Shown piece after piece: positions 1 through 18,608 of a stretch of 23,220 nucleotides of DNA. The stretch comes from a virus, in IMG/VR virus record IMGVR_UViG_3300006637_000782, positions 1 to 23,220 of that record, one strand, 5' to 3'. The notes beneath the pieces are model-generated. The model was not told the origin of the DNA, did not search any database, and was given only the letters and a program-made list of their open reading frames with translations. The first letter of the stretch is position 1, and each line of letters starts with the position of its first letter. The position numbers and the translations under genes were made by a program.

Positions 1-703
1 CAGACTTGAAGAAGACACCCCTTGGGTTCGTGTCTTCTGGAGTCACGGAGTAGTATGTCGAATAAGACGCCGTCGAAATATCCCACGCAGTGCTCAAGCC
101 GTATTCATTTACGCGGTTATAGACATCCTCAGACACGTACATCTTGGTGCCGTCAGACTTAAAAAATATCCCCGACGGGGCACCACCCTGCCCAACTATA
201 GAAAAGTTTTGCAGATAGGACACCGTCGAAATATCCCACGCAGTACTCAGGTCGTATTCATTAACCTCGTCGCCATTAGACCCCACGACGTACATCTTGA
301 TGCCGTCGGACCTGAAGTACAGTCCAGTGGGGGCGGACTCTTGCGTGGAGATATCCTTGTAGGTGGAGACCGTGGCTGTCGAAACATCCCACGCAGTACT
401 CAGGCCGTACTCGTACACCCTGTCAAGTTGAGATCCTACGACATACATCTTGGTGCCGTCAGACTTGAAGAATACGTCTTGGGGGAATGAATCTTGCGAC
501 ACACTGACATTCTGCACGTAAGACGCCGTCGAAATATCCCAAGCAGTACTCAGGTCGTATTCGTTTACGTCGTCTCCAAAATTACCCACGACATACATCT
601 TGGTGCCGTCTGGTTTAAAAAACAGGCCCTCGGGTTGAGTTTCTTGCGCGCCGACCCCAAAGACACCGATCGTGTTTGTTCCGACCCAGTAACGGTCTGC
701 CAT
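1..703 (-). CDS. Propeller-repeat tail protein, second paralogue (3' end missing)
   Basis: Incomplete: 234 codons are present and the frame runs off the left edge still open. I chose the ATG at 703 because CGGAGA lies at 710-715 just upstream. The protein begins MADRYWVG, a start I recall from phage tail proteins, and then carries four full and one cut copy of a repeat of about 51 residues with the pattern FFKxDGTKMYVxG, VNEYxLSTAWDISTASY. The repeat looks like a beta-propeller blade and matches the blades of the larger gene at 3907-5511. Base use is richer in G and C here than in that paralogue. It sits last in the fibre block, so I infer an exposed receptor-binding or carbohydrate-contacting role. 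The number of missing blades is unknown. Confidence 0.8.
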   Translation of the reverse strand, partial: MADRYWVGTNTIGVFGVGAQETQPEGLFFKPDGTKMYVVGNFGDDVNEYDLSTAWDISTASYVQNVSVSQDSFPQDVFFKSDGTKMYVVGSQLDRVYEYGLSTAWDVSTATVSTYKDISTQESAPTGLYFRSDGIKMYVVGSNGDEVNEYDLSTAWDISTVSYLQNFSIVGQGGAPSGIFFKSDGTKMYVSEDVYNRVNEYGLSTAWDISTASYSTYYSVTPEDTNPRGVFFKS

Positions 704-745
704 GTCAGGTCTCCGACTTAAAAACTATATCGACAGTCATGGCAG

Positions 746-1984
746 TCACGCTTGCGTTACGGTGGCAACAGCGTCCCAATAACTATCCGTGGCGTTATAT
801 ATGCAACCCACGTAAGTGACTTTCGTGGCAACCGTTGTTGTCGGAAGCGTGATGCCCATTTCGCGGAACGCACCGGATGACGTAGTCCAAGTGATCGCGC
901 GAGCAGTGCCATTATCCTCAATTCGAATCACAAGTTTTTGCCCATCAGCCGGAGTCCCGCTTGGTTGAGCAATGGTGATATCCCCCGTAAGACCCTCTAC
1001 CTTATAGACATCAGTGGTATCCCCATTTGGGGTGATACTCCCCGTGGTTGCGGATGCTGCAACGACGCGAGGATTGACGCGCTTGTTTGTCAGCGTCTGA
1101 GTGTCGCTCGTTCCAACAACAGATCCGGAGGGGGCCGTGAGAGAAGTACTCCACGCAGTGCCCGTGCTTACAGCGATTCCCGCCCCAGGGTATACTTGTG
1201 CTGCCGGTCCTGCGGCACTTGTCCAAGTAGTTCCATTAGAGGTGAGAACATTCCCATTACTGCCGGGAGCGACAACTTGAAATGCAGAAGTGCCATTGCC
1301 GAGCAGTACATTGTTCGCTGTAAAGGACGACGCACCAGTGCCCCCATCGGAGACCGTTAAATCCGTGATGCCAGTGATGGAGCCGCCGGTAATCGCGACA
1401 TTGCTCGCGGCCTGCGTAGCCATGGTGCCAAGGCCCAAGGATGTACGCGCAGTTGACCCGTTCTCCACCACCCACGTTGAGCCGTTGCCCACGATGATGT
1501 TGCCGTCTGCAACACCCAACGCACCGATCGCCGTCAGCGTTGCTGTCAGAGGCTGGAAGTTGAAAGTGCTGGTCACATCAACAACAGCGGCCCCCGCACC
1601 AGCGCCATCCGCATATACAATCACGCTGTTGCCATCCGCCACCGTGACGTTTCCACCCGACCCCTGCGTAAGGACGACGCTCTGGCCAGAGTTGTTCTTC
1701 ACGATATAAACGTGCTGCACGGTGTTGGGAGAAATGATGACGGTGTTTGTGCCGCTCGGACTACCACCAAAAACCAGGACAGAGTACTGACCGTCGGAAA
1801 GAGTCGCACTTCCGCTAACGGTAGTCGTCAGAGTGTGTGTTGTTCCAGAAAGAGCGATCGCACCGACGCCATTCGTGAGACGGTCAACAATCTCAAGGTT
1901 TACGTTCGTGGTGCCGCCCCACGTTCCGGACTGCTCGCCGGTAGCAATTAGCTCAAGGCCGACGTTGCTAAAAGTGCTTGCCAT
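746..1984 (-). CDS. Tail fibre protein
   Basis: 412 residues, ATG start with AGGA eight bases upstream. The N-terminal part (about 1-140) is a beta-rich Gly/Thr/Ser-rich domain opening MASTFSNVGLELIATGEQSG, of a type I recall at the head of phage fibre proteins, including a QHVYIVKNNSGQSVVL stretch. Residues about 145-270 contain fibre-shaft motifs such as SLGLGTMATQ, ITGGSITG and VLTSNGTTWT. The C-terminal third, from about residue 290, resembles a compact beta domain of the kind found at fibre tips. There are no charged helical segments and no signal peptide. It follows the repeat protein 2089-3459 after a gap of about 100 bases that holds a possible promoter. Role as a virion fibre is well supported by composition and motifs; the receptor is unknown. 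Confidence 0.8.
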   Translation of the reverse strand: MASTFSNVGLELIATGEQSGTWGGTTNVNLEIVDRLTNGVGAIALSGTTHTLTTTVSGSATLSDGQYSVLVFGGSPSGTNTVIISPNTVQHVYIVKNNSGQSVVLTQGSGGNVTVADGNSVIVYADGAGAGAAVVDVTSTFNFQPLTATLTAIGALGVADGNIIVGNGSTWVVENGSTARTSLGLGTMATQAASNVAITGGSITGITDLTVSDGGTGASSFTANNVLLGNGTSAFQVVAPGSNGNVLTSNGTTWTSAAGPAAQVYPGAGIAVSTGTAWSTSLTAPSGSVVGTSDTQTLTNKRVNPRVVAASATTGSITPNGDTTDVYKVEGLTGDITIAQPSGTPADGQKLVIRIEDNGTARAITWTTSSGAFREMGITLPTTTVATKVTYVGCIYNATDSYWDAVATVTQA

Positions 1985-2041
1985 TTGGGTGTCCTACGTT
2001 GCGGTTTCCGTCAAAACCCTCCCAGATGACGGGTTCTCCTC

Positions 2042-2070
2042 AATATAACTTGTTCGCGGCTTAGAGACAA
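2042..2070 (-). promoter_or_regulatory. Possible sigma70-type promoter
   Basis: On the minus strand the 104-base gap upstream of the fibre gene 746-1984 reads TTGTCT, 17 bases, TATATT. The -10 matches consensus at five of six bases, the -35 at four of six, and the spacing is ideal. This is one of only two sizeable gaps in the window (the other is 13406-13580). Seen only as a motif; activity is inferred. Confidence 0.35.
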
Positions 2071-2088
2071 CGCTCCTGTTGACCCCGC

Positions 2089-3459
2089 TTATGCCGCCGT
2101 GCACATCCAGTTGGGGCCTTGGGATGGTAGCTCCTCGGTCCACCCAGAAGATTGCACTGGGTTCTCCGGGGAATACCCAGGGTTTTGGTTCGGGGTAATT
2201 CTGCCCCACACAAGCACGGGGCCAACAACCCCTGTCGCCGCAACCCCAGTAACAGGGATGCTCGCGGTACCGGATGTCGTTACGCTGCCCACAAAACCCG
2301 CAACCGAGAGGCCGCTAACCGAAACGTCTGCTCCTGCCTCTGCGCTCGCAGACCCAACAACCCCTGTCGCCGCAACCCCAGTAACAAGAACACTGATAGT
2401 CTGCGGTATAATAACGTCGCCAACTTGACCTGCCGCAGAGAGGCCCCCAGCCACCACATCAGCAGAGGCCGTTACGGTTACCGACCCCGTCGACCCTGTC
2501 GCAGAGAGCCCCGTTTGTGGGACGTTGGCGTCGGCATTGACCGTTGTGGTGCCAACGGCGCCTGTCGCGGCGAGGCCCACAGGGGAGATGTTCGCGGTCC
2601 CAGAAGCTTGGACCTCGGAAACAGCAGCAGCCGCAGAGACCCCCGTCACGTTGACATCAACGCCCGACCCTTCGACAATCGAGACCTGGCCAACAGCGGC
2701 GGATGCAGACAACGACCCTGTTTGCACAACCTGATCTATCGAGACGACGACGCTGCCTACCAGGCCTGTCGCAGAAAGCCCCGTTTGAGGGACGTTAGCG
2801 TCACCTGTGACAGAGACAGACGAAACCGATCCTGCCGCAGACACCCCGGTAACAGCGGCGGAAACTCCGGAACCTTCTTCTACCGTCACGCCGCCGACAG
2901 AGCCGGTGGAAGACACGCCATTTGTTTGCGCCTCGGCGGATGCCGTGATGGCTACAGTCCCAACAGCGCCTGTTGCCGAAAGGCCAGTGACCGACGCGTT
3001 GGCGTCAGCTGCGACCGCTGCCAGGCCAATCTGCCCTGTTCCCCCCACACCCGTGATATCAACAACGGTGCCAAGGTCAACGGTGACACCATTCACCGCC
3101 CCTGTAGCGGACGAGCCAGTGACCGACGCATTTGCATCCGCCGAGACGGCCACAGATCCGACAGAGCCGCTGGCAGATAGGCCCGTCTGCGGGACGTTAA
3201 CATCCGCCGTGACCGTTGCCGTGCCGACAGAGCCCGTTGCCGAAAGGCCAGAGACAGACACGTTGGCGTCAGCTGCAACCGTTGCCGTTCCAACAGAGCC
3301 TGTTGCCGAAAGGCCAGTGACAGACACGTTGGCGTCAGCTGCAACCGTTGCCGTTCCAACAGAGCCTGTTGCCGAAAGGCCAGTAACGGAAACCGCCACC
3401 TCTACGCTGGCGATGTCATCCGCTAGGGCGACAGCAGCTAATGGGGCGAATCCAAGCAT
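2089..3459 (-). CDS. Tandem 22-residue-repeat structural protein
   Basis: 456 residues with ATG at 3459 and a clear GGAG ribosome binding site (CGGAGTAACACATG). After a hydrophobic start, MLGFAPLAAVALADD, nearly the whole protein is a tandem repeat of about 20-22 residues with the pattern VTGLSATGSVGTATVAADAN, giving roughly 18 to 20 copies, very rich in Ala, Gly, Val, Ser and Thr and poor in charge. The last 45 residues differ and are rich in Pro, Trp and Asn (GPVLVWGRITPNQNPGY). At DNA level the first copies are almost identical with a 66-base period. The protein probably forms an extended beta-strand stalk or solenoid in the tail. The N-terminus could be read as a weak signal peptide, but this start type is one I recall from marine phage virion proteins. 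Function beyond structure is not known. Confidence 0.75.
   Translation of the reverse strand: MLGFAPLAAVALADDIASVEVAVSVTGLSATGSVGTATVAADANVSVTGLSATGSVGTATVAADANVSVSGLSATGSVGTATVTADVNVPQTGLSASGSVGSVAVSADANASVTGSSATGAVNGVTVDLGTVVDITGVGGTGQIGLAAVAADANASVTGLSATGAVGTVAITASAEAQTNGVSSTGSVGGVTVEEGSGVSAAVTGVSAAGSVSSVSVTGDANVPQTGLSATGLVGSVVVSIDQVVQTGSLSASAAVGQVSIVEGSGVDVNVTGVSAAAAVSEVQASGTANISPVGLAATGAVGTTTVNADANVPQTGLSATGSTGSVTVTASADVVAGGLSAAGQVGDVIIPQTISVLVTGVAATGVVGSASAEAGADVSVSGLSVAGFVGSVTTSGTASIPVTGVAATGVVGPVLVWGRITPNQNPGYSPENPVQSSGWTEELPSQGPNWMCTAA
3236..3385. repeat. 66-base near-perfect tandem repeat inside the 22-residue-repeat gene
   Basis: Units start with GTTGCCGAAAGGCCA at 3236, 3302 and 3368 (plus-strand reading), exactly 66 bases apart. 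The first two units differ at only a few bases, and the third starts identically before diverging. The period equals 22 codons, so changes in copy number keep the frame. More diverged copies continue down to about 2200. Confidence 0.85.
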
Positions 3460-3462
3460 GTG

Positions 3463-3891
3463 TTACTCCGGTTTAACGGGCCACTCGACGCTATGAGGAA
3501 ACCCCTGTTGTGCTGTTATATCACGAAGTGCCTGCCTATAGGTAGCCATGTCAGGTGCCATCGCGACATCAGAAAGGGCCATCCAGTCCGTCTGGCGCAG
3601 AAGATCGTCGCGATGCGCGCGGATATTCGCCGCCGCGCGATCTGTAGCAATTTCTTGCACCGTCCAAACCTGCAACCAACCCGCATCCCCCTGCTCCACG
3701 GACTGGATGACGCGATGCGTCTTGCTGTCAAAAGCTGGTGTTGCAACCTGTTGCACGGGGTAAACGTCATATGCCGCTAGAACATCGTCGGGAACCTGCT
3801 TGGGAAAGCTGGTCTGCGGGTTATCACGGCGGAGTTGCCCAACGGTGTAAGGAAATTGGCTGGGCTGGCCGTTTGTGAGTTTGACGTACAT
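3463..3891 (-). CDS. Phage tail assembly chaperone-like protein
   Basis: 142 residues, ATG at 3891 with GGGAG five bases upstream. The C-terminal half has the signature of the Phage_tail_APC family (Pfam PF16778, recalled): an Arg/Asp helix RAHRDDLLRQTDWMAL, then YRQALRDITAQQGFP and a closing WPVKP. The N-terminal half (YVKLTNGQPSQFPYTVGQLR) is the part that in related genes varies with the fibre. Proteins of this family are encoded beside tail fibre genes and are thought to help fibre folding or attachment. Here the gene lies between a propeller protein and a repeat protein, which fits. Confident on family, less so on the partner. Confidence 0.85.
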   Translation of the reverse strand: MYVKLTNGQPSQFPYTVGQLRRDNPQTSFPKQVPDDVLAAYDVYPVQQVATPAFDSKTHRVIQSVEQGDAGWLQVWTVQEIATDRAAANIRAHRDDLLRQTDWMALSDVAMAPDMATYRQALRDITAQQGFPHSVEWPVKPE

Positions 3892-3906
3892 GTTTTTCTC
3901 CCATGT

Positions 3907-5511
3907 CTACGATAGATCAAAGCTATACACAGCCATTCCGGTTTGCGTGACAATGTACAGCTTACGTCCAGTTGGTCTAAAGAACAGCCCGAATGGGTTA
4001 GTGAACACGCTGCCGAAGGCAAAAACTTGTAGGAAGGAAGCTGTAGAGACATCCCACTCAGTGGTGAGGTCATATTCGTTCACTTCGTACCCGAATTGCC
4101 CAATAACATACATCTTGGTGCCATCTGGTTTGAAAAATATCCCTGCGTTAGCGGCATCCTGTGCGAGAGTAAAATACTGCAAAAAAGAAGCAGTGGATAC
4201 ATCCCAAGCAGTACTTAGATCGTATTCGTTCACACGGGAGTTAGTGCGACCGACAACATACATCTTCGAACCATCTGGTTTGAAGAACAGGCCTTGCGGT
4301 AAGGTATCTTGCGTTAAAACACTAAAGACTTGAACATACGAAGCCGTGGACACATCCCAAGCAGTGCTTAGGTTATATTCATTTACATCACGCCCAGAGG
4401 TTCCGAGAACATACATTTTGGTGCCGTCTGGCTTAAAAAACAGCGAGTTTGGGTTGGCCTCTTGTGCAGCAACACTAAAGGCTTGATTATAAGAAGCGGT
4501 AGAAATATCCCAAGCACTGCTTAACGCGTATTCGTTTATGTCGTCTCCGATAACGCCAGTAATGTACATCTTAGTGCCGTCAGATTTGAAGAACACATCT
4601 CTAGGTGATGTCTCTTCCGCCGACACATTCTTGTAGTTTGTTGCAGGGGCATTCCAAGCTGCGGTAGAAATATCCCAAGCAGTACTTAGGTCGTACTCAA
4701 ACACATTGGCCGTCTGACCAATAATATACATCTTGGTGCCGTCAGACTTAAAAAATACGTCCCTAAGTTGAGTCTCTTCTGTAGCAACACTAAAGTTCTG
4801 GGAATACGATGCTGTCGAAATGTCCCAAGCAGTGCTTAGATCATATTCGTTTATGTCATTGCCTGAATCTCCGGAAATGTACATCTTTGTACCATCCGAC
4901 TTAAAGTAGACCCCGGTCGGTGCGCTGTCTTGTGCAACAACACTAAAATTTTGAGAATACGATGCTGTCGAAATGTCCCAAGCAGTGCTTAGGTTGTATT
5001 CGTTTACGTCATCTCCTGAGGTGCCGACAATATACATTTTAGTCCCATCGGACTTAAAAGACAGGCCTTGCGGTGCTGTCTCTTCTGTAGCAACACTAAA
5101 GTTCTGGGAATACGATGCTGTCGAAATGTCCCAAGCAGTGCTTAGGTTATATTCATTTACGTCATCTCCGCTGGCACCAGTGACGTACATTTTGGTCCCA
5201 TCAGGTTTGAAAAACAAACCCGCTGGAATTGACTCTTGTGCAGAAACGCTGAAGGATTGATTGTACGATGCTGTCGAAATGCTCCAAGCAGTGCTTAGGT
5301 CATATTCGTACACGACACGATTTTGCGAGCCAACAACATACATCTTCAAACCATCTGGCTTGAAGAACATTGTCTGGGGGAATTTTTCTTGACTTAAAAC
5401 CGAAAACTGACCGTAGCCAGACGCATTAAAAAAAGCAGTGGAAATATCCCAACCGCCTGTTCCAGCCCCGCCAGCAGAACTTGCGGCCTGCATTAGGCGA
5501 GAAATGCTCAT
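3907..5511 (-). CDS. Ten-blade propeller-repeat tail protein
   Basis: 534 residues. I chose the ATG at 5511 (MSISRLMQAASS) because it overlaps the upstream stop as ATGA. The protein consists of ten copies of a repeat of about 51 residues: FFKPDGTKMYVxG, xxDVNEYxLSTAWDISTASYxQxFSVxxQExxPxGL. The sequence begins part way through a unit (GGWDISTAFF) and ends part way through one (GRKLYIVTQTGMAVYSFDLS), the Velcro arrangement that closes beta-propellers. Four units share near-identical DNA at 153-base spacing. No catalytic motif is seen. Placed among fibre genes, it is likely a receptor-binding or adhesive tail protein. It is a paralogue of the gene at 1-703 but uses more A and T. Confidence 0.85.
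   Translation of the reverse strand: MSISRLMQAASSAGGAGTGGWDISTAFFNASGYGQFSVLSQEKFPQTMFFKPDGLKMYVVGSQNRVVYEYDLSTAWSISTASYNQSFSVSAQESIPAGLFFKPDGTKMYVTGASGDDVNEYNLSTAWDISTASYSQNFSVATEETAPQGLSFKSDGTKMYIVGTSGDDVNEYNLSTAWDISTASYSQNFSVVAQDSAPTGVYFKSDGTKMYISGDSGNDINEYDLSTAWDISTASYSQNFSVATEETQLRDVFFKSDGTKMYIIGQTANVFEYDLSTAWDISTAAWNAPATNYKNVSAEETSPRDVFFKSDGTKMYITGVIGDDINEYALSSAWDISTASYNQAFSVAAQEANPNSLFFKPDGTKMYVLGTSGRDVNEYNLSTAWDVSTASYVQVFSVLTQDTLPQGLFFKPDGSKMYVVGRTNSRVNEYDLSTAWDVSTASFLQYFTLAQDAANAGIFFKPDGTKMYVIGQFGYEVNEYDLTTEWDVSTASFLQVFAFGSVFTNPFGLFFRPTGRKLYIVTQTGMAVYSFDLS
4808..5300. repeat. 153-base repeats coding propeller blades
   Basis: The plus-strand segment GATGCTGTCGAAATG starts at 4808, 4961, 5114 and 5267, exactly 153 bases (51 codons) apart, and the surrounding bases are nearly identical. 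Flanking blades are more diverged. This points to recent duplication or gene conversion within the propeller gene. Confidence 0.85.
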
Positions 5512-5867
5512 GCCATTGCATCCCCTGCTTGAAAACCATACCACGTTGTGCCGCCGTCCTGGGTGTAAAACGTGAATACATCTGTCTCACCGCTTGCAGG
5601 GGCATCAGGGGCAGTGCCAGACGGCCAATCGACAGCCGCAGGCCAAGTGATCGTCACCGTGGCAGATGGCGTTACCTTCAGCGTGAAGCCGTAAGCAGTG
5701 CCCGAGGCAGGCGGGCTGCTAAAGGCATAGGTTACGTTGGCCGACGGAGCATCCGAGAAGACGTTGCCGCTTGTCAGATCAAGAGTGCCAGAAGTAATGT
5801 CACCGACTGTTTCACCAGACGGCGAAGCATCAAAGAACCCCTTGGTGTAGTCGATGACAATTCCCAT
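5508..5867 (-). CDS. Small tail-associated structural protein
   Basis: 119 residues, from the ATG at 5867 (MGIVIDYTKGFFDASPSGE), which overlaps the stop of the previous gene as TAATG. An upstream Met in the same frame would run back through the previous gene and has no ribosome binding site. The protein is a single beta-rich domain with WPAAVDWPSGTAPDAPASG, then TFYTQDGGTTWYGFQAGDA. The second motif is one I recall as the end of phage fibre or tail-tip modules. Its stop overlaps the start of the propeller gene. It may be a short fibre-tip or connector component. Confidence 0.7.
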   Translation of the reverse strand: MGIVIDYTKGFFDASPSGETVGDITSGTLDLTSGNVFSDAPSANVTYAFSSPPASGTAYGFTLKVTPSATVTITWPAAVDWPSGTAPDAPASGETDVFTFYTQDGGTTWYGFQAGDAMA

Positions 5868-6166
5868 TAGACTGCAACGCTCCCGTTCATATCTTCCTGC
5901 GCCATAACCCAAGCATAGCACTTGTCGAGGAAGTTAGCGCCAGCCGCAGCTTCGACCTCAGCCAGGTCAGCGTGATAGCGACGGAAGTCCACTTCACGGG
6001 TGTCGTCACCGGGCGTGGCAGTGGCATAGCCAGAGACATCAATCATCACCGTGAACTTGGGGCCACCCTCACGCATCCGAGAGACAGCCGCAGTGACGAT
6101 GCGGAAGTAAGCGCCAGCAAAGGGAGTACCGTACTGGCTGGTGGTCAGGTCGAGAGAGATAGCCAT
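5867..6166 (-). CDS. Conserved hypothetical phage protein
   Basis: 99 residues. The start at 6166 has a very strong Shine-Dalgarno sequence (TAAAGGAGGCC) nine bases upstream; an in-frame Met farther upstream lies inside the preceding gene and is unlikely. The protein reads MAISLDLTTSQYGTPFAGAY, followed by a beta segment (KFTVMIDVSGYA) and an acidic helical C-terminal half (YHADLAEVEAAAGANFLDK). I know of no named domain. The position between fibre genes and the strong ribosome binding site suggest an abundant virion or assembly protein. Function unknown. Confidence 0.7.
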   Translation of the reverse strand: MAISLDLTTSQYGTPFAGAYFRIVTAAVSRMREGGPKFTVMIDVSGYATATPGDDTREVDFRRYHADLAEVEAAAGANFLDKCYAWVMAQEDMNGSVAV

Positions 6167-6177
6167 GTTGGCCTCCT

Positions 6178-7539
6178 TTAGTAGGTTACTTCGCTGGTAT
6201 GCACAGTGGCGACCCAGCGAATGTTTGTTGCAGCAGCCCCAGTGACTTCGATCTTCAGGCCACCATTGGTAGTATCTGCACTCAGGGCCATGCCCCATGC
6301 AGGTGTGTTGTCCAGAACAGTTGTAGCACTATTCACCAGCACTGTCGTCCCCGCCGATCCTTCCCTGCGGATCAAGCCCTCAATCTTCCATGCTGCACAC
6401 GCTGTGCCTGCCGAGGCTTGCTGACGGGCTACGATGGTGCCGTGGAAGGCGTAGGCAGAGTTGTTGGGCAGGATGATTTGGTTGGTGGCTGAAGGCGTTG
6501 TCAAGAATGTAGTCAACGTTGTTGGCGTTGCATCTGTTGTAGCGATGGTCAGAACCATGCGCCCTTCTTGAGACGACCCGTCATTACTGCCGGAAATACT
6601 TGCCCCAGACCACGCATACTTACCCGTAATGCCGTTTACATCCGTGCGAAAGCCAAGCGCAAAACTTCGCAATGCGTCTGCTTGACACCCCTGCCCAATA
6701 GCCACGGCGGCGGAGTTTGAAGCGGTTGTCCCATCCCCAATGGCGATAGACCAGTTGCCAGATGCGGTGCCATCCCCAAGCACAATTGATTCAAGGCCAG
6801 ATGAAAGACCAGCAGGGCCTATGGCGACACTATCCGTTCCCGTTGACTGACAAAGACGCCCTATTGCAATGCTGCCTGTCCCAGTGGCACCGTAGCTTGA
6901 TGTGTTCAAAAGGTTAGCTGCGGCGAAGCTGTCGGTGCCGGATGCGTAGGAGCCGCCGAGAGAAACTGCACCGCCCCCTGTTCCCGCCGAAGCACCTGCA
7001 CCCGCAGAACTAGCACCCGCCGCAAAGTTGTAACCACCGCTTGCAGTCGCACCATATCCAATAGCAACAGCACCAGAGCCGCTTGCATTTGCAGCCGCAG
7101 CGTTATTGGCGTTGTCATAAGAAAAACCACGGGGAAAGTCACTTTCTGTGACCAGCCAGTTCGTGCCGTCAGATACAATCTTCACGGTTTGACCACGCTT
7201 TACTGATAACGTAGTCGCCCCCTCAATAGTCTCTGACCCATCTGGATCAATAGTGGCAGAGCCAGTGGTTTTATTTGAACGAATGTAGGCATACCAGCCA
7301 GCGCCAAGCGTAGAAGCAGAAGTCAGGCTGGCAGTTACCGCACCAGTGCCTGTGAACTCAATAATCTTACCGAGATCACCAGACACCACAGTATAAGCGC
7401 CTGTCTTGGTGTCGATGGTCAGGGCAGATGCACCGCCGCCACCGCCAATCGCAGTGCCATTCAGCAGCAGGTCAGTGCCATCGCTCGACAGCGTAATGCC
7501 AGAGCCAGCACCCGTGTGATCTAGTTCGATCTTACCCAT
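6178..7539 (-). CDS. Tail fibre with YadA-like head repeats (paralogue 1)
   Basis: 453 residues, ATG at 7539 ([12 protein letters not shown]) overlapping the upstream stop as TGATG. Residues about 1-130 form an attachment domain (IDTKTGAYTVVSGDLGKIIE and VKRGQTVKIVSDGTNW) of a type common in phage tails. From about 145 to 320 the sequence has repeats such as AVAIGYGATASG, SIAIGRLCQSTGTDSVAIG and SIAIGDGTTASNSAAVAIG, the pattern of YadA/Hep_Hag trimeric adhesin heads. The last 120 residues ([48 protein letters not shown]) closely match the end of the neighbouring gene. I infer a trimeric fibre. It shares its C-terminus but not its N-terminus with 7539-8882. Confidence 0.85.
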   Translation of the reverse strand: MGKIELDHTGAGSGITLSSDGTDLLLNGTAIGGGGGASALTIDTKTGAYTVVSGDLGKIIEFTGTGAVTASLTSASTLGAGWYAYIRSNKTTGSATIDPDGSETIEGATTLSVKRGQTVKIVSDGTNWLVTESDFPRGFSYDNANNAAAANASGSGAVAIGYGATASGGYNFAAGASSAGAGASAGTGGGAVSLGGSYASGTDSFAAANLLNTSSYGATGTGSIAIGRLCQSTGTDSVAIGPAGLSSGLESIVLGDGTASGNWSIAIGDGTTASNSAAVAIGQGCQADALRSFALGFRTDVNGITGKYAWSGASISGSNDGSSQEGRMVLTIATTDATPTTLTTFLTTPSATNQIILPNNSAYAFHGTIVARQQASAGTACAAWKIEGLIRREGSAGTTVLVNSATTVLDNTPAWGMALSADTTNGGLKIEVTGAAATNIRWVATVHTSEVTY

Positions 7540-8882
7540 CAGTAAGTAACCTCGCTTGTGTTCACAGTGGCGACCCACCGAATGTTTGTAGCGGCTGCAC
7601 CCGTGACAGTAATGGCCAAGCCGCCGTTGGTCGTGTCAGCGGTCAATGCAATGTCCCAAGCAGACGCACCAGCCGAGGCATACAGCTTGTTCTTGATCCC
7701 GTTGCCCAGCACAGTCGATGCAGCGTTGGCGTCACGCAACAATGCCCCCTTGATCTCCCAGCTTGCGTAGTCCGATCCAGCCGAAGCCTGTTGCCGTGCG
7801 ATGATCGTGCCTGAAAAACTGTAGGCAGAGTTGTTGGGTAGGATGATTTGGTTGGTGGTGCCAGCGGTGGTGTTACTAGTTGTAAGAGCTTCTGGGGTAG
7901 CGTCTGTGGTGTCAGAGCGCAGGACGAAGGTGCCAGCTTGGGCATCGCCTTGTGCAGCAAACTTACTTGCGGCAAATGACATTTTGCCCTGAATATCTGC
8001 CAAAGAGGCTTCGCCTAGTGCAACGGTTCCCCGTGCTGACGCTGTTGTATCACGCCCCGCAGAAAACGAATAGTTACCAGAAGCCAATGAGCCAAAGCCT
8101 ATTGAATAAGCATAGCTTGTTGTAGCTTGAGCCGCCTGCCCTACGGCGCATGATCCACTGCCTGTCGCCTTAGAAAGGCTCCCCATCGCCACAGAGTTAG
8201 CACCAGTGGCACCATAGCTAGAGGTATTGCTGGCTATGGCTGCTGCGAAGGAGTTAGTGCCAGAGGCGTAAGAACCGCCGAGGGCCATCGCACCCGCGCC
8301 TGTTTCTGCTTGTGAACCACCGCCAGACGAGTTTGCGCCAATAGCCGTTGAAAAAGAAGACTTAGCGTCAGGCTGGTTTCCTATAGCTAAGCTGTTTGCG
8401 CCTGTTGCGTCAGCGTTAAAGCCTATCGCAACGCTTGAACCACCGGTAGCGTCAGATACGAAACCAATCCCAATACCGTAATTACCGGCGGCAGTTGCAC
8501 CACTGCCAATGGCTATTGCATTCGTGCCAGTAGCACTAGGTGCAGTAGGACTAGACGGGTTCTCAGCATACAACTCAAGAGCAGGTGGAATATCCTCAGC
8601 CGCAGCCGACACATAAACCACCGCCGAGCCGCTTAGGTTCAACGCAGCATCAGCATTGGAACTCTCAAGCACAGTGCGAGACAGGGTAGTGCCAGAGGCC
8701 GTGTAGGTGCCGCTGCCGATCTCCCAGTCCGTGCCATCCTCGATGACGTAGCGGACGACATCACCGTCAGCCACGCCTGCATCAGAAAAGGTCTGGTAGC
8801 CGCTTTCGGCGGAACCCAGAGTGACAGTCCCCGTTCCGGTAGTCGAGGTGCTGACTTTTGCTCTATTTACTAAAGTGACCAT
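7539..8882 (-). CDS. Tail fibre with YadA-like head repeats (paralogue 2)
   Basis: 447 residues, ATG at 8882 with GAGGTG seven bases upstream. Residues 1-98 form an N-terminal phage tail module ([39 protein letters not shown]). Residues about 120-300 hold head repeats with the spacing of trimeric autotransporter adhesins: [59 protein letters not shown]. Residues about 320-447 are the C-terminal domain shared with the gene at 6178-7539. The heads of YadA-like adhesins are trimeric left-handed beta-rolls, so this is likely a trimeric receptor-binding fibre. No translocator domain is present, as expected for a virion protein. Confidence 0.85.
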
Positions 8883-8901
8883 AGGTCAACACCTCGTTTA
8901 A

Positions 8902-9012
8902 TTATGCCGGGTCCGGGGTGCCGATCTCCCATGACGTAGTAACGTCCTCCGTCGTGTTCCGGACAGTCGGGCCGATGGCTACGCTCTTCGTCAGACGGAC
9001 AAGCGTAACCAC
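8902..9012 (-). CDS. Small 36-residue protein with GTG start
   Basis: A short ORF in the 141-base space between the structural gene ending at 9024 and the fibre starting at 8882. It begins with GTG at 9012, about nine bases after an AAAGG motif, and reads VVTLVRLTKSVAIGPTVRN, ending in TSWEIGTPDPA before TAA. It fills the gap without overlapping either neighbour, which fits the packing elsewhere. The longer ORF in another frame here overlaps neighbours on both sides and is Arg/Pro-rich, so it looks like a shadow. No domain recognised. It could be a small tail component or nothing at all. Confidence 0.5.
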   Translation of the reverse strand: MVTLVRLTKSVAIGPTVRNTTEDVTTSWEIGTPDPA

Positions 9013-9023
9013 GGCGCGTGCCT

Positions 9024-9461
9024 TTAGGCGATGCGGATGATGGCGTTCGAAGCGTCTGCCGTAGGGAACACAATCGTAAAATCGCCGGACGTCGAGGTTT
9101 TGTCCGCACCAAAGTCCAGAACAACCACGCTCGGGTCACCCGCTGCGGTGTCGTTGTAGATCAGCGCACCACGTGCCGTAATCGTCGCGGAGGTGAACGT
9201 CAGGTCAGCGAAATCCGTGAGCGCCGTAGTACCGCTCGTAGTCGGGGTGACATTGGTCAAAGTGCCACCACCCGCGGTATACGAACCAGATGCGCTCACC
9301 TCATTGGTGGCTGTGTACGCAGTCGTCGCCGCCGTAAACGACGCAGAATTGGTGTACAGAGCCAACTTAAAGTTGTCGCCCGTAGAAGCAGTAAAGTTGT
9401 GCACACCCTGCATAAGCTCTTTCTTGAAAGAGGTGCACATGAAGTTGCCGGTAAAAGCCAT
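9024..9461 (-). CDS. Virion structural protein, beta-rich
   Basis: 145 residues, ATG at 9461 with AGGAG ten bases upstream (AGGAGACTCTGACATG). It starts MAFTGNFMCTSFKKELMQGV, then HNFTASTGDNFKLALYTNSA, a type of opening I recall from conserved phage structural proteins. The rest is beta-rich and dominated by Thr, Ala and Ser (ALIYNDTAAGDPSVVVLDFG, GDFTIVFPTADASNAIIRIA). There are no membrane segments or catalytic motifs. Its position between the neck genes and the fibres suggests a tail hub, fibre-base or surface protein. Structural role is inferred from composition and context. Confidence 0.7.
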   Translation of the reverse strand: MAFTGNFMCTSFKKELMQGVHNFTASTGDNFKLALYTNSASFTAATTAYTATNEVSASGSYTAGGGTLTNVTPTTSGTTALTDFADLTFTSATITARGALIYNDTAAGDPSVVVLDFGADKTSTSGDFTIVFPTADASNAIIRIA

Positions 9462-9771: not shown

Positions 9772-10419
9772 TTATGTACGCTGTGAACGAAGCTTGCCGG
9801 AACGATACTCATCAATCGTTTCCCTGGCTTCGCCCAGGTTTTTCAGTCGAGACAGAGACTCAGCAAGACGTTGAGTGTAGAGACCAAGCAGAGCCTGCTC
9901 CCCCTTCATAAACGTGTACGCTTCGCACAGGCAACCGTAAAGAAGGGCCAACTCTGCGTTTTCCGACAGCCAGCTGGTGCCGCTTTCCGATCCTGCCGTA
10001 AGAGAAGCAGGGCGGTACAAGTAGTGAATGTCTACGGTGTAGTTTGCGTCCGGAGTCGGCGCGAGAATGAAGTAGCCTACATCAAACTGAGCATAATACT
10101 TAGGTTGACCCGTCGTCGCAGCATCAGGCGTGTAGGTCTGAACAAAGTCCAGGTCTTTGAAAAGCAAGAACTCCTTGGATCCGCTGACGTCAATCGAAAG
10201 TGAAAAAGGAGCGAGAAAGTCACTCGGTGCTGCAAGGTACTCGTTGCCGCTGGTCATGTTGCCAAACTGGTTCTTTTGGAACAAATTTAACTGCACACTC
10301 TTCAAGATGCGTTCCTCTGCCAATCGGATGAACAGAGGAAGGTTGTTGACGAATGTGGTCTCGTCATTCTCCGTATAATCGACAATCGCCTGCTTTAGCT
10401 GCGCGTAGGTAAAGGCCAT
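9772..10419 (-). CDS. Adaptor-like neck protein (P22 gp4-like layout)
   Basis: 215 residues, ATG at 10419 one base after the previous stop. A helical N-terminus (FTYAQLKQAIVDYTENDETT, then LPLFIRLAEERILKSV) is followed by a beta middle (YLAAPSDFLAPFSLSIDVSG, KYYAQFDVGYFILAPTPDAN, YTVDIHYLYRP) and a helical C-terminus (ENAELALLYGCLCEAYTFMK). This helix-beta-helix layout is that of head-to-tail adaptor proteins of the gp4 type, and it parallels the gene at 10747-11412. Such proteins bind beneath the portal ring and close the filled head. Family assignment rests on layout and position, not on a strong motif. Confidence 0.65.
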   Translation of the reverse strand: MAFTYAQLKQAIVDYTENDETTFVNNLPLFIRLAEERILKSVQLNLFQKNQFGNMTSGNEYLAAPSDFLAPFSLSIDVSGSKEFLLFKDLDFVQTYTPDAATTGQPKYYAQFDVGYFILAPTPDANYTVDIHYLYRPASLTAGSESGTSWLSENAELALLYGCLCEAYTFMKGEQALLGLYTQRLAESLSRLKNLGEARETIDEYRSGKLRSQRT

Positions 10420-10747: not shown

Positions 10748-11412
10748 TACGTCCTCAGATACTGAACACTAGGCTGTAGCCGCATTGACACGCGATCTCG
10801 GTCTTCATCCGCGGCGCGCTGGAACTCCTCATCGTAGATCGCCTTCAGGAACTGTAGACGATCCGGTGCACGTTTCATAGCGATGTAATACGCCAAGCCC
10901 GCAACCATGCATGGGTAAAACCGGAACGGGACACCCGCTGTGTTGACTAGGGCATCCGCATCTTCCAAACGGCGCACATAGTAATAAACAATCTGGTCCG
11001 TCGAGTTCTCCGGCGTCTGCCAGAGATTGATGACAGGCGAGATCTGGCGATCAAAATAAAACTGCGAGGGCCGACCCTGATCCGTCTTGTTCGGGAAATT
11101 CATGTAGTCCGAACGGCTGATACGGTCCATCTCGTAATCAGTTCCGTCACGACGAAGAACCATTTCCAGAATGTCCACGACGTCAGCGGCAAGGGTATAG
11201 GTCGAAGTCCCCTGAGTCAGCGTCGTCGTAGTCTGCGTCACTGTCCAGAGATTGAGGCCTCGGTTGGCCCACTCAGCAAACATGAGGTTAAGAGACCGAC
11301 GAGCCGTACGGGCATCGTAGCCAGTGCGGACTTCCAGCCCACAACGCTCGTAGGCCTCTTCGATCATCTCGCCTACGTCTAAATTGAAGTCTCTTGAACC
11401 AGATGTTGTCAT
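10747..11412 (-). CDS. Head-to-tail adaptor, P22 gp4-like
   Basis: 221 residues; the start ATG at 11412 overlaps the upstream stop as ATGA. The N-terminal helices (DVGEMIEEAYERCGLEVRTG, ARTARRSLNLMFAEWANRGL) with Leu-Trp, then TSTYTLAADVVDILEMVLRR, a beta middle (GRPSQFYFDRQISPVINLWQ, IVYYYVRRLED) and a helical end (MVAGLAYYIAMKRAPDRLQF) agree with the phage adaptor family to which the P22 tail accessory factor gp4 belongs. These bind the portal from below after packaging. Length is somewhat above that of P22 gp4. The gene shows the same layout as 9772-10419. Confidence 0.75.
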   Translation of the reverse strand: MTTSGSRDFNLDVGEMIEEAYERCGLEVRTGYDARTARRSLNLMFAEWANRGLNLWTVTQTTTTLTQGTSTYTLAADVVDILEMVLRRDGTDYEMDRISRSDYMNFPNKTDQGRPSQFYFDRQISPVINLWQTPENSTDQIVYYYVRRLEDADALVNTAGVPFRFYPCMVAGLAYYIAMKRAPDRLQFLKAIYDEEFQRAADEDRDRVSMRLQPSVQYLRT

Positions 11413-11597
11413 TTCTTCTTCGCCGTTTTGGCCGACTCACGGAACGCCTTTGCAGTCGGCGCTCCCCTGGAACCGGGCTTCCTCATCTTCTCGCCAGAGC
11501 CTTCAGCAATCCGCTTACGCTTGGCGTTGATGTTGGCATACAACCCCTTTTTCATCGGAGCCTCCGTAATTTGCTTAGCCATACTAGCACGGTTCAT
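11409..11597 (-). CDS. Small Lys/Arg-rich phage protein
   Basis: 62 residues from the ATG at 11597, which follows GGGAA and the TAA stop of the previous gene. A GTG immediately before it and an ATG at 11582 are other possible starts. The body reads MKKGLYANINAKRKRIAEGS, then GEKMRKPGSRGAPTAKAF, and the protein ends in KTAKKK; it is very basic. I recall this type from many phage genomes without an assigned function. The charge suggests binding to DNA or to acidic partners inside the head. Confidence 0.7.
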   Translation of the reverse strand: MNRASMAKQITEAPMKKGLYANINAKRKRIAEGSGEKMRKPGSRGAPTAKAFRESAKTAKKK

Positions 11598-11600
11598 CAC

Positions 11601-11867
11601 TTAATTCCCAGAGTTGTTCTTAACGTAGAACCCGACCGCACCCGCTATGAAGAGCAGGAACGTGGTCGTAACGACACGGATTACTGTAGACCACACCGCT
11701 TTCTTGGTATCACGCCATGATACAAGCAGGCTACGCAGCTCGTTCAGATCCCGCTCCGCATTCTCGTCGTGAAGCCCAAGCTCTTCAAGCGCGGCCCTCG
11801 CACCTCGCTTCGCTGCACGATCCAGCATTGCTTCTAGTTCTTCCGGGGTGATCTGGACGTTTCCCAT
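11601..11867 (-). CDS. Small membrane protein, DUF6127-like
   Basis: 88 residues from the ATG at 11867 (MGNVQITPEELEAMLDRAAK), with GGAA upstream; a longer form of 105 residues from an upstream start would overlap the previous gene. A helical acidic and Ala-rich first half (RGARAALEELGLHDENAERD) is followed by LNELRSLLVSWRDTKKAV and one transmembrane segment at about residues 60-82 (VIRVVTTTFLLFIAGAVGFY). The pattern resembles the DUF6127 family, which I recall from phages and gene transfer agents. It has the size of a single-pass holin or a membrane-anchored assembly protein; the sequence does not decide between these. Confidence 0.7.
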   Translation of the reverse strand: MGNVQITPEELEAMLDRAAKRGARAALEELGLHDENAERDLNELRSLLVSWRDTKKAVWSTVIRVVTTTFLLFIAGAVGFYVKNNSGN

Positions 11868-11868
11868 G

Positions 11869-12129
11869 TTAACAATTCCACGCTCTGAGGGACTTATTGA
11901 TCCGGCTGTTCGGATCACGCTTCGTCTTCTCGCTCGTGAGCTTCTTCTTCATGCCTTCCATCCGGGCACAGAAGCTCTTGCGACGACCTTTGTCAGCCTT
12001 CGTCTTCGGGTTCGGTGCAGGGGGCTTCAGATCCATACCCTGCTTTTTAGCCGAAGCTCGGCCCTTGGCATTCAATCCACCCTTGGGATCCTTGCCTTCC
12101 TTACGCTGCCATGCGGGAGACTTAGCCAT
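11869..12129 (-). CDS. Small basic phage protein, DUF6321-like
   Basis: 86 residues; the ATG at 12129 overlaps the upstream stop as TGATG. It is strongly basic and begins MAKSPAWQRKEGKDPKGGLN, followed by KGRASAKKQGMDLKPPAPNP, RRKSFCARMEGMKKKL and SRINKSLRAWNC. The SPAWQRKEGK...GGLNAKGR signature matches the DUF6321 family as I recall it, seen in many marine and cyanobacterial phages. Function is not established. It belongs with two other small basic genes in this window (11409-11597, 18608-18805). Confidence 0.75.
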   Translation of the reverse strand: MAKSPAWQRKEGKDPKGGLNAKGRASAKKQGMDLKPPAPNPKTKADKGRRKSFCARMEGMKKKLTSEKTKRDPNSRINKSLRAWNC

Positions 12130-12926
12130 CAGAGCGGCCCCGTATTTTGAATGTAAACAAAGTCCATTGACGCCGAAACATTAAAGCTAACAGCTCCAGA
12201 GGAAGAAAACGCTCTCATTTCTAGGTCTGTTTTTTCTGTAAACCTTAAAGGAAAAGTATAAAATTGCTCGTGTGCGCCATCTGTAAGAGTAAATCTCTCT
12301 TTTATCTGAAAGACTTCTCCATACGGTCTAGCAACAAGACTAGCATTCAAAAGAGCTTGGGTGTTAGTAGATGTGCCTGTGGATAAAGACATCTTTGTGA
12401 GAAACGCTGTGTATCCTGCGGGAACTGTCCAAAGAGCCATCAATGTTTGGTTGTCGCCATCCCCATTTATGGTCAGGTAAATATTAGCTGGAACCCCAGA
12501 TGTAACCGTACCTGTTCCTGCGTAAAGTGTGCCAGCGTTTGCGCCACCACTACCTGCACTGCGAACAATGCCGCGATTTATACGCAGATAAGATTTTGTG
12601 GTATTAACAGCCGTTTGCCCGTTCAAGGTGACAACTTCGTTTATTTCGTTGTAATCACCATCTAGGCCAAAAATTTCAACCGTTCTTGCCCCAGTACCTG
12701 CGGCAGTGTCGTCAACCGAACTGCTTGATATAGTCATTACTGTGGCTGATGCGGGGTAGGAATACAAACCGCCTTGTTCCCAGATGGTTTCTTTTGTGGC
12801 TCCAACATCAGCGTTGTAACCAAACTTAAACACAGTTTTATGGCCAGGGATTTGACCCCTGGCCACCTGAAGCTCGAACGGCTCAGATGTCCCGACCTGA
12901 GAAATGGATCGGATCTGGTAAGCCAT
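12129..12926 (-). CDS. Virion structural protein of unknown role
   Basis: 265 residues, ATG at 12926. Mostly beta-rich: YSYPASATVMTISSSSVDDT, then AAGTGARTVEIFGLDGDYNE, SYLRINRGIVRSAG, LMALWTVPAGYTAFLTKMSL and a closing SFNVSASMDFVYIQN. There is no signal peptide, membrane segment or catalytic motif. I recall relatives in marine phage genomes annotated only as structural or hypothetical. It sits downstream of the capsid gene among small capsid-associated proteins and could be a head surface or tail protein. Its DNA is visibly richer in A and T than the neighbouring capsid genes, with codons such as AAA, TTT and GTA. Confidence 0.75.
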   Translation of the reverse strand: MAYQIRSISQVGTSEPFELQVARGQIPGHKTVFKFGYNADVGATKETIWEQGGLYSYPASATVMTISSSSVDDTAAGTGARTVEIFGLDGDYNEINEVVTLNGQTAVNTTKSYLRINRGIVRSAGSGGANAGTLYAGTGTVTSGVPANIYLTINGDGDNQTLMALWTVPAGYTAFLTKMSLSTGTSTNTQALLNASLVARPYGEVFQIKERFTLTDGAHEQFYTFPLRFTEKTDLEMRAFSSSGAVSFNVSASMDFVYIQNTGPL

Positions 12927-16501: not shown

Positions 16502-16990
16502 TTATACGTGCTTGACGTCGTCTGGTTCTAGAAGTGTGGCAATGACCTCGTCGTCATTGATGATGCGAACCTCGCCACCATCAATCTTGAACCGAGATCC
16601 AGAATACCTGCCGATACAGATCCACTGCCCTGCTTTGCACCAGGGCTCTGCTCCGGGGCCAAACTTGTTGGGGTCCTGATAAGCGAGCGGCCCAAGCTTC
16701 AGCACGTAGGCCACAACGGTTGCCACAGACTCGCGTTCCCGAACCTCGTCGGGGACATACAACCCGCCAGCGGTCTTGGCGCTGCCTTGGTAGGGCATGA
16801 CCAGAATACGCCAGCCCGTGGGCTGTGGAAGTCGCTCTAGGAGGGGTTTGTCCAGGAGAGAGGGGTCTAACACCCTCTCGTCCGATTTCACGTACGCGCT
16901 TTCCAAAGACGTAGCTGGAGCTACTTGCTCCGCTCGTTCCTTGTTGATTTTCTGCGCGACATGGTCAGGAAGATATAAGGTCTTCGACAT
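16502..16990 (-). CDS. groES: GroES-like co-chaperonin
   Basis: 162 residues; the start overlaps the upstream gene by 26 bases. The Cpn10 fold covers residues about 58-155: PQPTGWRILVMPYQGSAKTA, then GGLYVPDEVRERESVATVV, KAGQWICIGRYSGSRFKIDG and VRIINDDEVIATL. The GSAKTAGGLYVPDEVRE stretch corresponds to the mobile loop that contacts GroEL. The first 55 residues are an extension not found in bacterial GroES (about 97 residues). Phage co-chaperonins such as T4 gp31 adapt host GroEL for folding the capsid protein, and this gene lies just ahead of scaffold and capsid. No GroEL homologue is in the window, so it presumably works with the host's. Confidence 0.85.
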   Translation of the reverse strand: MSKTLYLPDHVAQKINKERAEQVAPATSLESAYVKSDERVLDPSLLDKPLLERLPQPTGWRILVMPYQGSAKTAGGLYVPDEVRERESVATVVAYVLKLGPLAYQDPNKFGPGAEPWCKAGQWICIGRYSGSRFKIDGGEVRIINDDEVIATLLEPDDVKHV

Positions 16991-17768: not shown

Positions 17769-17934
17769 TCTCTACCTCTCGGCGCATCCGCATGCTATCG
17801 ATCAAGTGCTGATCAGCTTCGCGCTCATACTCATGCTGCCCTTGCTTCTTGCCGCGGAAGTAGGCCGCTGCAATCGCAGCAAGAACAACCCCCGCAGCCA
17901 TCAAGTACATCTTGAAACGGGCAAGCAAGAACAT
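17692..17934 (-). CDS. Rz-like inner-membrane spanin
   Basis: 80 residues from the ATG at 17934 (MFLLARFKMYLMAAGVVLAA), which overlaps the endolysin stop as TGATG and has GGGAG upstream; an in-frame ATG at 17955 is possible. One transmembrane segment covers about residues 9-26 (MYLMAAGVVLAAIAAAYF), followed by a basic RGKKQGQHEYEREADQHLID and a helical segment rich in Arg and Glu, as in Rz proteins whose periplasmic coil contacts Rz1. It is short for Rz (lambda Rz is about 150 residues). The overlap with the downstream lipoprotein gene supports the call. Confidence 0.75.
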   Translation of the reverse strand: MFLLARFKMYLMAAGVVLAAIAAAYFRGKKQGQHEYEREADQHLIDSMRMRREVENEVETLDDIGLGKRASKWLREADPS

Positions 17935-18608
17935 CAGCGGTCTCCCGCCTTCCACTTCTTGATGCGCTCCATGTCAATGATCCCGGTCGCGCCGAGTACG
18001 ATCACCGCCAAAACAGCCATGATCAGGAGCTGAGGCCACTCCAGCCCACCGAAAACGCCAACCATCGGGGTAGCAATGCTCGCAATCTTGGTGACCTGAG
18101 AAGCTTGGATCGTCTTCGACTGTGCGAGAGACGTCCGTTGTTCTGGAGATGGTTTGTTTTCCAGCCATGGCTTCACCTTAAATCCGGGGCATGCCTTGTT
18201 CGCGTACTCGTTATGTCCCGAAACCTTCGTAATAGATGGGAACTCCACCTTCAGGGAAGCGATCAATTTACGCAAAGCACGTTCTTGCGCGGGAGTGTAA
18301 TGGTCTTCAAATTTGTCGGTGGCCTCAGAACCACGTCCGCCCAGCAAGCACACCCCGATAGTCGTTGCGTTCTTGCCCTTGGTGTGCGCGCCAGGGATTT
18401 CTTCAGGGCGGCCAGGAGCCATGGACCCATCGCGGTCCATGACCCAATGATATCCGATATTGTACGTCTGACCTTGGTACTCGGCACCCCAGCCGTTGTC
18501 CTTGTGCCACTTGTTGATCTCGTCTCGCTTCCACTCAACGGGCTGACCTTCGCCCCAGTTTGGCGCAGTGGCCGAGCAGTGGATCACGATTTCGTCTATC
18601 TGTCGCAT
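17934..18608 (-). CDS. Endolysin: N-acetylmuramoyl-L-alanine amidase with C-terminal membrane segment
   Basis: 224 residues; ATG at 18608 overlaps the upstream stop as TAATG. Amidase_2 domain at about 4-147, cutting the bond between muramic acid and L-alanine. Zinc ligands His10 (VIHCSAT), His132 and Cys140 (SGHNEYANKACPGF) and the likely catalytic Tyr53 and Lys138 agree with T7 lysozyme, including the His-x5-Lys-x-Cys spacing. After a linker (KPSPEQRTSLAQSKTIQASQ) comes a hydrophobic segment at about 192-211 (PQLLIMAVLAVIVLGATGII) with a basic end. That tail, of a type I recall in alphaproteobacterial phage endolysins, may anchor the enzyme or act in place of a separate holin. No signal peptide. 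Confidence 0.9.
   Translation of the reverse strand: MRQIDEIVIHCSATAPNWGEGQPVEWKRDEINKWHKDNGWGAEYQGQTYNIGYHWVMDRDGSMAPGRPEEIPGAHTKGKNATTIGVCLLGGRGSEATDKFEDHYTPAQERALRKLIASLKVEFPSITKVSGHNEYANKACPGFKVKPWLENKPSPEQRTSLAQSKTIQASQVTKIASIATPMVGVFGGLEWPQLLIMAVLAVIVLGATGIIDMERIKKWKAGDR

Follow-up and report, generated by a model that had tools for sequence, protein, structure and literature searches.

The window, meaning the whole stretch of DNA analysed here, is the 23,220-base virus record IMGVR_UViG_3300006637_000782, which is classed as linear (often a fragment) and carries its main genes on the minus strand. A block of fibre-type genes occupies its first part and, in the sense of transcription, runs from a core gene of phrog_644 through YadA1, YadA2, p99, the knob gene (fibC120), propA, a chaperone gene, rep22 and a shaft fibre gene to propB (Table 1). 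This report deals chiefly with the triad formed by the knob, the tip protein propA and the chaperone. A sequence-only reading had placed five large repeat-rich proteins, a 22-residue-repeat protein and a tail chaperone in one block; all seven were found, each with an ATG start and on the minus strand, with propB truncated. Two genes absent from that list, p99 and the knob gene, both proved key.

The knob matches the extreme C-termini of the tail-fibre families phrog_7760, phrog_9017, phrog_3904 and others; searches of Pfam and of PDB sequences gave no match for it. Its stop codon overlaps the propA start as ATGA, and propA opens with a short peptide (MSISRLMQAASSAG), after which come ten propeller blades. 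A frameshift fusion of the two genes was considered and provisionally rejected: the overlap is ATGA, and no slippery heptamer was seen by eye. The fetched loci (numbered with the prefix L) held 122 unique knob ends, 118 of them with a next open reading frame (ORF); repeated hits were removed and unique sequences alone were counted. Peptides were scored with a matrix of nine seed peptides from the same data, the window's included, at a threshold of 8 that was set before the result was seen (2.5 was used for collecting tips). Peptides of the resulting family, MSIARLMQxAAAG, with a score of at least 8 start 74 of the 118 ORFs next to knob ends, against 7 of 2,749 other ORFs; since the matrix was built from the same data, the figure of 74/118 describes the pattern. 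The ATGA overlap with the knob stop is present in 59 of the 74 peptide-bearing genes. Among the seven non-adjacent peptide ORFs, those of L407, L411 and L419 lie after a p99 gene that itself follows a knob, and that of L238 is a propeller gene. L414 likewise has p99 between knob and tip, so in four loci the peptide is retained with an intervening gene.

What follows the peptide is variable. The 75 unique complete tips (score of at least 2.5, at least 150 residues) fall into 17 body clusters, of which the propeller cluster holds 54; 44 tips sit behind knobs whose identity to that of the window is 75% or more, and they span 9 body clusters, 34 of these tips being in the propeller cluster. A Pfam scan of 12 tips gave names to seven (DUF7483 in three, Laminin_G_3, Lcl_C, DUF6242 and WD40) and none to the other five. 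The gene after the tip is nearly constant: the window's chaperone matches Phage_tail_APC (PF16778) at 69.2 bits (cut-off 26.6), and, of the 72 tips for which 400 or more bases of downstream sequence are available, 71 have a homologue next, L399 being the exception, or in 73 of 74 when unique neighbour pairs are counted. An apparent knob chain was also seen at L335 (2920-7159), where three knob-plus-propeller genes in series, with four-base overlaps, precede a peptide gene. In bacterial genomes 100 stretches fitted the knob pattern and none was confirmed, so these give no clue to the host.

Table 1. Features of the fibre block, in order of transcription.
Feature	Position	Strand	Basis
Core gene preceding the block, gene-order edge of the variable region	9024..9461	-	phrog_644, E 8.8e-20
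YadA1 fibre: own N-terminal domain, YadA head repeats, C-terminal domain common with YadA2	7539..8882	-	Pfam YadA_head
YadA2, second YadA-head fibre: N-terminus unlike YadA1, same C-terminal domain	6178..7539	-	Pfam YadA_head
p99, connector-like 99-residue protein	5867..6166	-	synteny
Knob (fibC120), 119-residue fibre C-terminal domain, proposed tip socket	5508..5867	-	PHROG matches
Proposed docking peptide, propA residues 1-16 (MSISRLMQAASSAGGA)	5464..5511	-	peptide family scoring
propA, 534-residue tip protein, ten blades	3907..5511	-	blade spacing, AlphaFold2
Tail-fibre assembly chaperone	3463..3891	-	Phage_tail_APC
rep22, 22-residue-repeat protein, putative core tail gene	2089..3459	-	repeats, synteny
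Shaft fibre, 412 residues	746..1984	-	phrog_31104, phrog_3030
propB, second propeller protein, 234 residues seen, N-terminus MADRYWVG...	1..703 (ORF 2-703)	-	cut by contig end

Knob and peptide vary together. Similarities were compared with Mantel statistics over 80 knob-tip pairs with a peptide score of 0 or more, using the final 40 residues of the knob, the first 16 of the tip and residues 31-130 for the body. Knob and peptide similarity correlated at r = 0.675, a value reached in 0 of 2,000 permutations, and the partial correlation given the body was 0.68. Knob and body similarity gave r = 0.03 (696 of 2,000 permutations as high), and peptide and body similarity were weakly related (r = 0.18, 24 of 2,000).

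The same arrangement was looked for in named phages. The knob matched 395 named records, of which ten were examined, none of them used as a peptide seed. In the Roseobacter phages CRP-603, CRP-9, CRP-13 and CRP-4 and the Limnohabitans phage DC31, the gene after the knob scores 19.2-24.0 for the peptide, and a Phage_tail_APC gene comes next at 36.6-70.5 bits, above the cut-off. Synechococcus phage BUCT-ZZ01 has, straight after the knob, a gene that matches Phage_tail_APC weakly, just below the cut-off. Three phages have, after a knob-like end, a large protein that overlaps or abuts it and starts with another N-terminus: Vibrio phage G1 (L426, 3578-7197), Aeromonas phage Atoyac13 (L438, 3467-7076) and phage phAPEC8 (L425, 3815-7164). 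The N-termini of the large proteins of G1 and Atoyac13 are alike, and these pairs may represent another docking pair. Lentibacter phage ICBM2 came up through its propeller; by eye, its propeller protein ends in a knob-like part, and the next gene is annotated tail fiber assembly protein.

The blades of propA are spaced at 50-54 residues. An AlphaFold2 model made from 28 sequences had a mean predicted local distance difference test (pLDDT) score of 91.8, with residues 1-18 below 50 and a helix predicted at residues 4-11, and the protein is read as two tandem five-bladed beta-propellers. The first unit (about residues 33-291) aligned with Trim71 (8j72_B) at a VIA-align Z of 18.5 and a root-mean-square deviation of 3.5 over 219 aligned residues, and 245 columns matched a viral model in BFVD at 0.8 A. 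Foldseek and VIA-align returned propeller matches of a general kind only, with poor superposition across both propellers. One glycine-rich stretch, GGAGTGG, was seen by eye straight after the peptide. Exactly 5, 10 or 15 blades were counted in 93 of 109 complete propeller ORFs (36, 52 and 5, respectively), and the count was a multiple of five (5, 10 or 15) in 101 of the 109 once overlapping blade calls were merged. Propeller-anchored loci had been chosen by best whole-protein match, which favours ten blades; the fairer set is therefore the knob-anchored one, unselected for propeller length, in which 30 of 35 propeller ORFs had 5, 10 or 15 blades. A model of the L397 protein (pLDDT 77.4) has 20 strands at residues 160-406, in five sets of four.

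Elsewhere the propeller is found in cis, one protein combining the first half of a knob, five or ten blades and the knob end. Insertions occur at two knob loops, both of which are occupied in L388 (by eye). GDNFS-type knob ends, every one of which belongs to a protein with an internal propeller, are followed by the peptide in 0 of 17 cases, as against 71 of 89 ends of the GF type. The chaperone gene comes directly after cis-propeller knobs in 17 of 29 unique neighbour pairs.

The large terminase subunit (TerL, 21289-22767) is 60.9% identical to that of phage 023Pt_psg01, 57.8% to that of phage DSL-LC04, 57.6% to that of Pelagibacter phage HTVC027P and 53.9% to that of HTVC023P. Identities to HTVC027P of 50% for the portal, 68% for the major capsid protein and 58% for TerL show homology with the cultured members of the HTVC023P-like group. 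Phages of the HTVC023P type are assigned to the Podoviridae (PMC9599517), and the window's virus would be an uncultured podovirus of this group, its short tail being deduced from its relatives. Megablast against named phages, from which very near records may be left out, gave no DNA-level match to the window, and a tRNA scan found no tRNA genes in it.

A cassette of about 5.5 kb (YadA1, YadA2, p99, knob, propA and chaperone) lies between phrog_644 and rep22, core genes that adjoin each other in most of the relatives compared. Relatives were gathered with the conserved protein at 9772-10419 (best 80 loci, 79-85% identity), and the collections of TerL relatives and of one further scan were likewise limited to the best 80 loci each. 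For counting core order, 30 of the 80 loci gathered with the conserved protein were hand-picked by downstream length, and 27 passed a 4.5-kb cut. The order phrog_644, rep22 homologue, large fibre was present in all 27 of these loci; the window's shaft N-terminus was matched in BLAST by 26 of these fibres, and the remaining one, in L114, resembles it in the N-terminus. No YadA, p99, knob, propeller or chaperone appeared among the up to three listed hits for each ORF of these loci. Across phrog_644 loci with a match of at least 50%, rep22 was adjacent in 74 and at least 100 bases away in 16, while 25 showed no rep22, some contigs being counted twice. At the cassette edge, a 141-base gap (8883-9023) stands ahead of YadA1, in a block whose genes otherwise mostly lie close together.

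The sequence-only reading had expected the block to be hypervariable between close relatives, and this was borne out. Nine contigs with 85-87% TerL identity were taken from the matches listed; five extend to the block, and the gene content of all five is unlike the window's, so the region is hypervariable. Four of the five have no YadA, knob, propeller or chaperone match. The fifth, L431, has a different fibre whose end is knob-like; its shaft gene is succeeded by a tip with a peptide score of 8.5 and a DUF7483 body, and then by a Phage_tail_APC gene. The cassette is also absent from L084, at 85% core-protein identity. Conversely, the p99 and knob of L351 are 96% and 86% identical to the window's, yet its best TerL-like match is 21%, and in L257/L258 the core protein is at 43% but p99 at 89%, the knob at 79% and YadA1 at 64%, the gene order of L258 being that of the window. 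This discordance of core and cassette identities points to horizontal exchange of the cassette.

The remaining proteins of the block differ in character. Pfam YadA_head was matched by YadA1 at 51.3 bits and by YadA2 at 26.9 bits, both above the cut-off of 25; YadA1 also matches solved trimeric autotransporter heads, and by analogy both would form trimeric fibres. Of 103 unique ORFs bearing the N-terminal domain of YadA1, 23 have it fused to a knob domain, a propeller domain or both. The p99 protein had no Pfam or PHROG match; in unique neighbour pairs it comes after YadA-type C-termini in 67 of 127, and a knob gene is next after it in 35 of 73. It is well conserved even where phage cores are unrelated, with 61-96% identity across the compared loci and 88-96% in several whose cores are scarcely or not at all similar.

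In rep22, a 66-bp tandem repeat (3212-3384, 2.6 copies, 96% matches) lies within a protein made throughout of degenerate 22-residue repeats (by eye). A homologue was present in all 27 loci examined, at 231-833 residues and with 24 distinct sequences. The near-identity of the 66-bp units and the spread in homologue length, from 155 to 833 residues, suggest that repeat number changes. A direct search with rep22 gave no match among named phages and none confirmed in viral contigs, its relatives being found through synteny only, and no solved structure was related to it by sequence. It looks like a core tail part. The shaft fibre matches phrog_31104 at its N-terminus, which is common to relatives' fibres of 424-1597 residues, and phrog_3030 at its C-terminus, and propB matches Pfam SGL and Lactonase at or above the cut-off. 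YadA1, YadA2, the shaft fibre and propB have four other N-termini and are therefore probably separate further branches. Fibre-sized genes occupy the same place in cultured relatives, four in HTVC023P (443-491 residues) and three in 023Pt_psg01 (460-473 residues).

Outside the block, a GroES-like protein is encoded at 16502-16990 (Pfam Cpn10, 33.8 bits, cut-off 21.1), where cultured relatives have an annotated co-chaperonin GroES, and an Amidase_2 lysis-type enzyme (49.6 bits, cut-off 26) at 17934-18608 amid the head genes. A cut gene upstream of TerL contains a 15-bp tandem repeat (23018-23219, 12.3 copies) encoding a five-residue repeat such as GGGDT/GGVEL.

It is probable, in our view, that the block is a composite host-recognition region with an exchangeable cassette, in which the knob-tip-chaperone triad provides a peptide-docked tip whose body has been replaced repeatedly and whose first 16 or so residues are matched to the knob. 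Fibre ends are usually trimeric, and the knob, probably a trimer, would be the end of a fibre that, at 119 residues, is very short. The N-terminal helix of the tip would dock onto the knob end, and the tip body, here tandem five-bladed propellers, would bind a glycan or protein of the host surface. The Phage_tail_APC product would aid folding of the knob and not itself be an adhesin, and with knob and tip genes overlapping as ATGA, their translation would be coupled. In other phages the same kind of propeller sits in cis, inserted in loops of the same knob, with the chaperone directly after. A wider proposition is that, in water-dwelling phages, marine and fresh, a common pool of interchangeable tips is served by a single family each of knobs, of peptides co-evolving with the last residues of the knob, and of chaperones, the same propellers also being used in cis in at least two knob loops; the pool would span multiples of five propeller blades, lectin-like folds and unassigned folds. 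Whether this holds in full seems to us evenly balanced.

Other explanations account for parts of these observations. The peptide might be a recognition tag for the chaperone, with knob and tip as separate proteins sharing an assembly factor. The chaperone gene after 71 of 72 tips agrees with this, but cis-propeller knobs lacking the peptide have the chaperone after them too (the 17 of 29 pairs and the 0 of 17 GDNFS-type ends given above), and the peptide co-varies with the knob end, which makes a tag unlikely. Alternatively, the knob end and the tip start might be no more than a homology platform for recombination between proteins that make no contact. The two stretches do adjoin in DNA, and the body changes immediately past the peptide; however, the peptide is kept across p99 in L407, L411, L414 and L419, and cis insertion indicates that the knob is able to carry propellers, so that we hold plain linkage to be quite unlikely. 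The sequence-only reading, for its part, had taken the block as diverse adhesive proteins, in effect a set of independent receptor-binding proteins, that may widen the host range or let the virus attach to particles or gels. Folds of the propeller, YadA and lectin types are frequent surface binders, and the fibre-like genes carry five different N-termini, four in addition to that of the knob, which suggests several branches. The large genes are indeed there, but five separate adhesives are improbable because knob, propeller and chaperone act as one unit by synteny and co-variation; rep22 is core-like, and cultured relatives too have multi-gene fibre blocks. A set of independent adhesives appears to us about as unlikely as plain linkage.

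Several points weigh against peptide docking and limit how far the favoured reading can be taken. The peptide is missing in the other five of the ten named phages, with scores of 2.9 in Microcystis phage Mel-JY34, -4.8 in G1, -10.4 in Atoyac13 and -11.6 in both phAPEC8 and BUCT-ZZ01. The matrix seeds came from the tested data (the window's peptide was one, and others were of CRP type), and 44 of the 118 next ORFs fall below the threshold, including knob-gene chains, p99, cis-propeller types and divergent peptides. The 80 pairs were selected for a non-negative peptide score. Knob and peptide adjoin in DNA, and joint inheritance could be part of the source of their co-variation; the loci are related and certain contigs are present twice, so that kinship and DNA adjacency are only partly removed from it. 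The cases with p99 in between are four loci, two of them with an identical tip N-terminus, and the 17 GDNFS-type loci are close relatives. L192 has a cis-propeller protein with a docking-type end that is followed by a chaperone and no tip, and closure of the propeller ring after blade five is presumed. Gene order, exchange, co-variation and five-blade units can be read from the sequences; from them we infer docking of the peptide on the knob, with the gp37/gp38 adhesins and the anchor-branched proteins as precedents.

In Salmonella phage S16 and T2-like phages, short N-terminal helices of gp38 attach it to a hydrophobic platform of gp37 (PMC9608196). Like gp38 on gp37, propA is a separate tip protein whose gene directly follows the fibre gene, here with the ATGA overlap, and capping would be similar; unlike gp38, it is a ten-blade propeller protein without a glycine-rich receptor-binding domain, and a Phage_tail_APC gene comes next. 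L212 has a tip-like gene after a knob-like end (11399-12748; phrog_4474, Gly_rich_2 at 28.6 bits with a cut-off of 24.3, peptide score 2.6, below the threshold), and some tips may therefore be nearer to gp38, in domain type. In the anchor-branched receptor-binding proteins of G7C, K1-5 and KP32, one protein has a docking domain and another a conserved, sometimes very short, N-terminal peptide (PMC6872550). The conserved peptide on a second protein with a highly variable remainder is shared with the tips described here. The socket in that account is a T4gp10-like domain, whereas here it would be a C-terminal fibre knob with no match among Pfam families or PDB sequences. A chaperone after each tip and propellers inserted in cis in the knob are features seen here and not in the accessible part of the anchor-branched account (PMC6872550).

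The distantly related Alteromonas phages A5 and V22 share a tail fibre and its cognate chaperone (PMC10579305, PMC7289586), which resembles the triad as a fibre-chaperone module common to distantly related marine phages. Their chaperone is of the DUF4376 type and the head is on the fibre itself, whereas here the head would be an exchangeable protein of its own, encoded between knob and chaperone. In metaviromic islands, host-recognition genes (tail fibre, lectin-like, C1q-like, YadA and gp38) are prominent among those that vary between related marine phages (PMC3909814). The window likewise has host-recognition genes in its variable region; as far as its accessible text goes, that work concerns variability and does not describe the triad (PMC3909814). 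A literature search, with most subscription journals outside its reach, found no description of a knob-peptide-tip-chaperone triad. The docking principle is already known; the same search brought up no account of this family's spread over unrelated aquatic phages or of five-blade propellers serving in cis and trans.

If docking is real, the part that sets specificity in many uncultured aquatic phages would be readable from sequence, as the gene after the knob, with the body as the receptor-binding part, and 'hypothetical proteins', including those of cultured Roseobacter and Limnohabitans phages, would become predicted adhesins. It would also offer a simple in vitro test of the way in which phages swap recognition heads and retain the remaining tail. 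Tip swapping may help to explain changes of host in unrelated water-dwelling phages.

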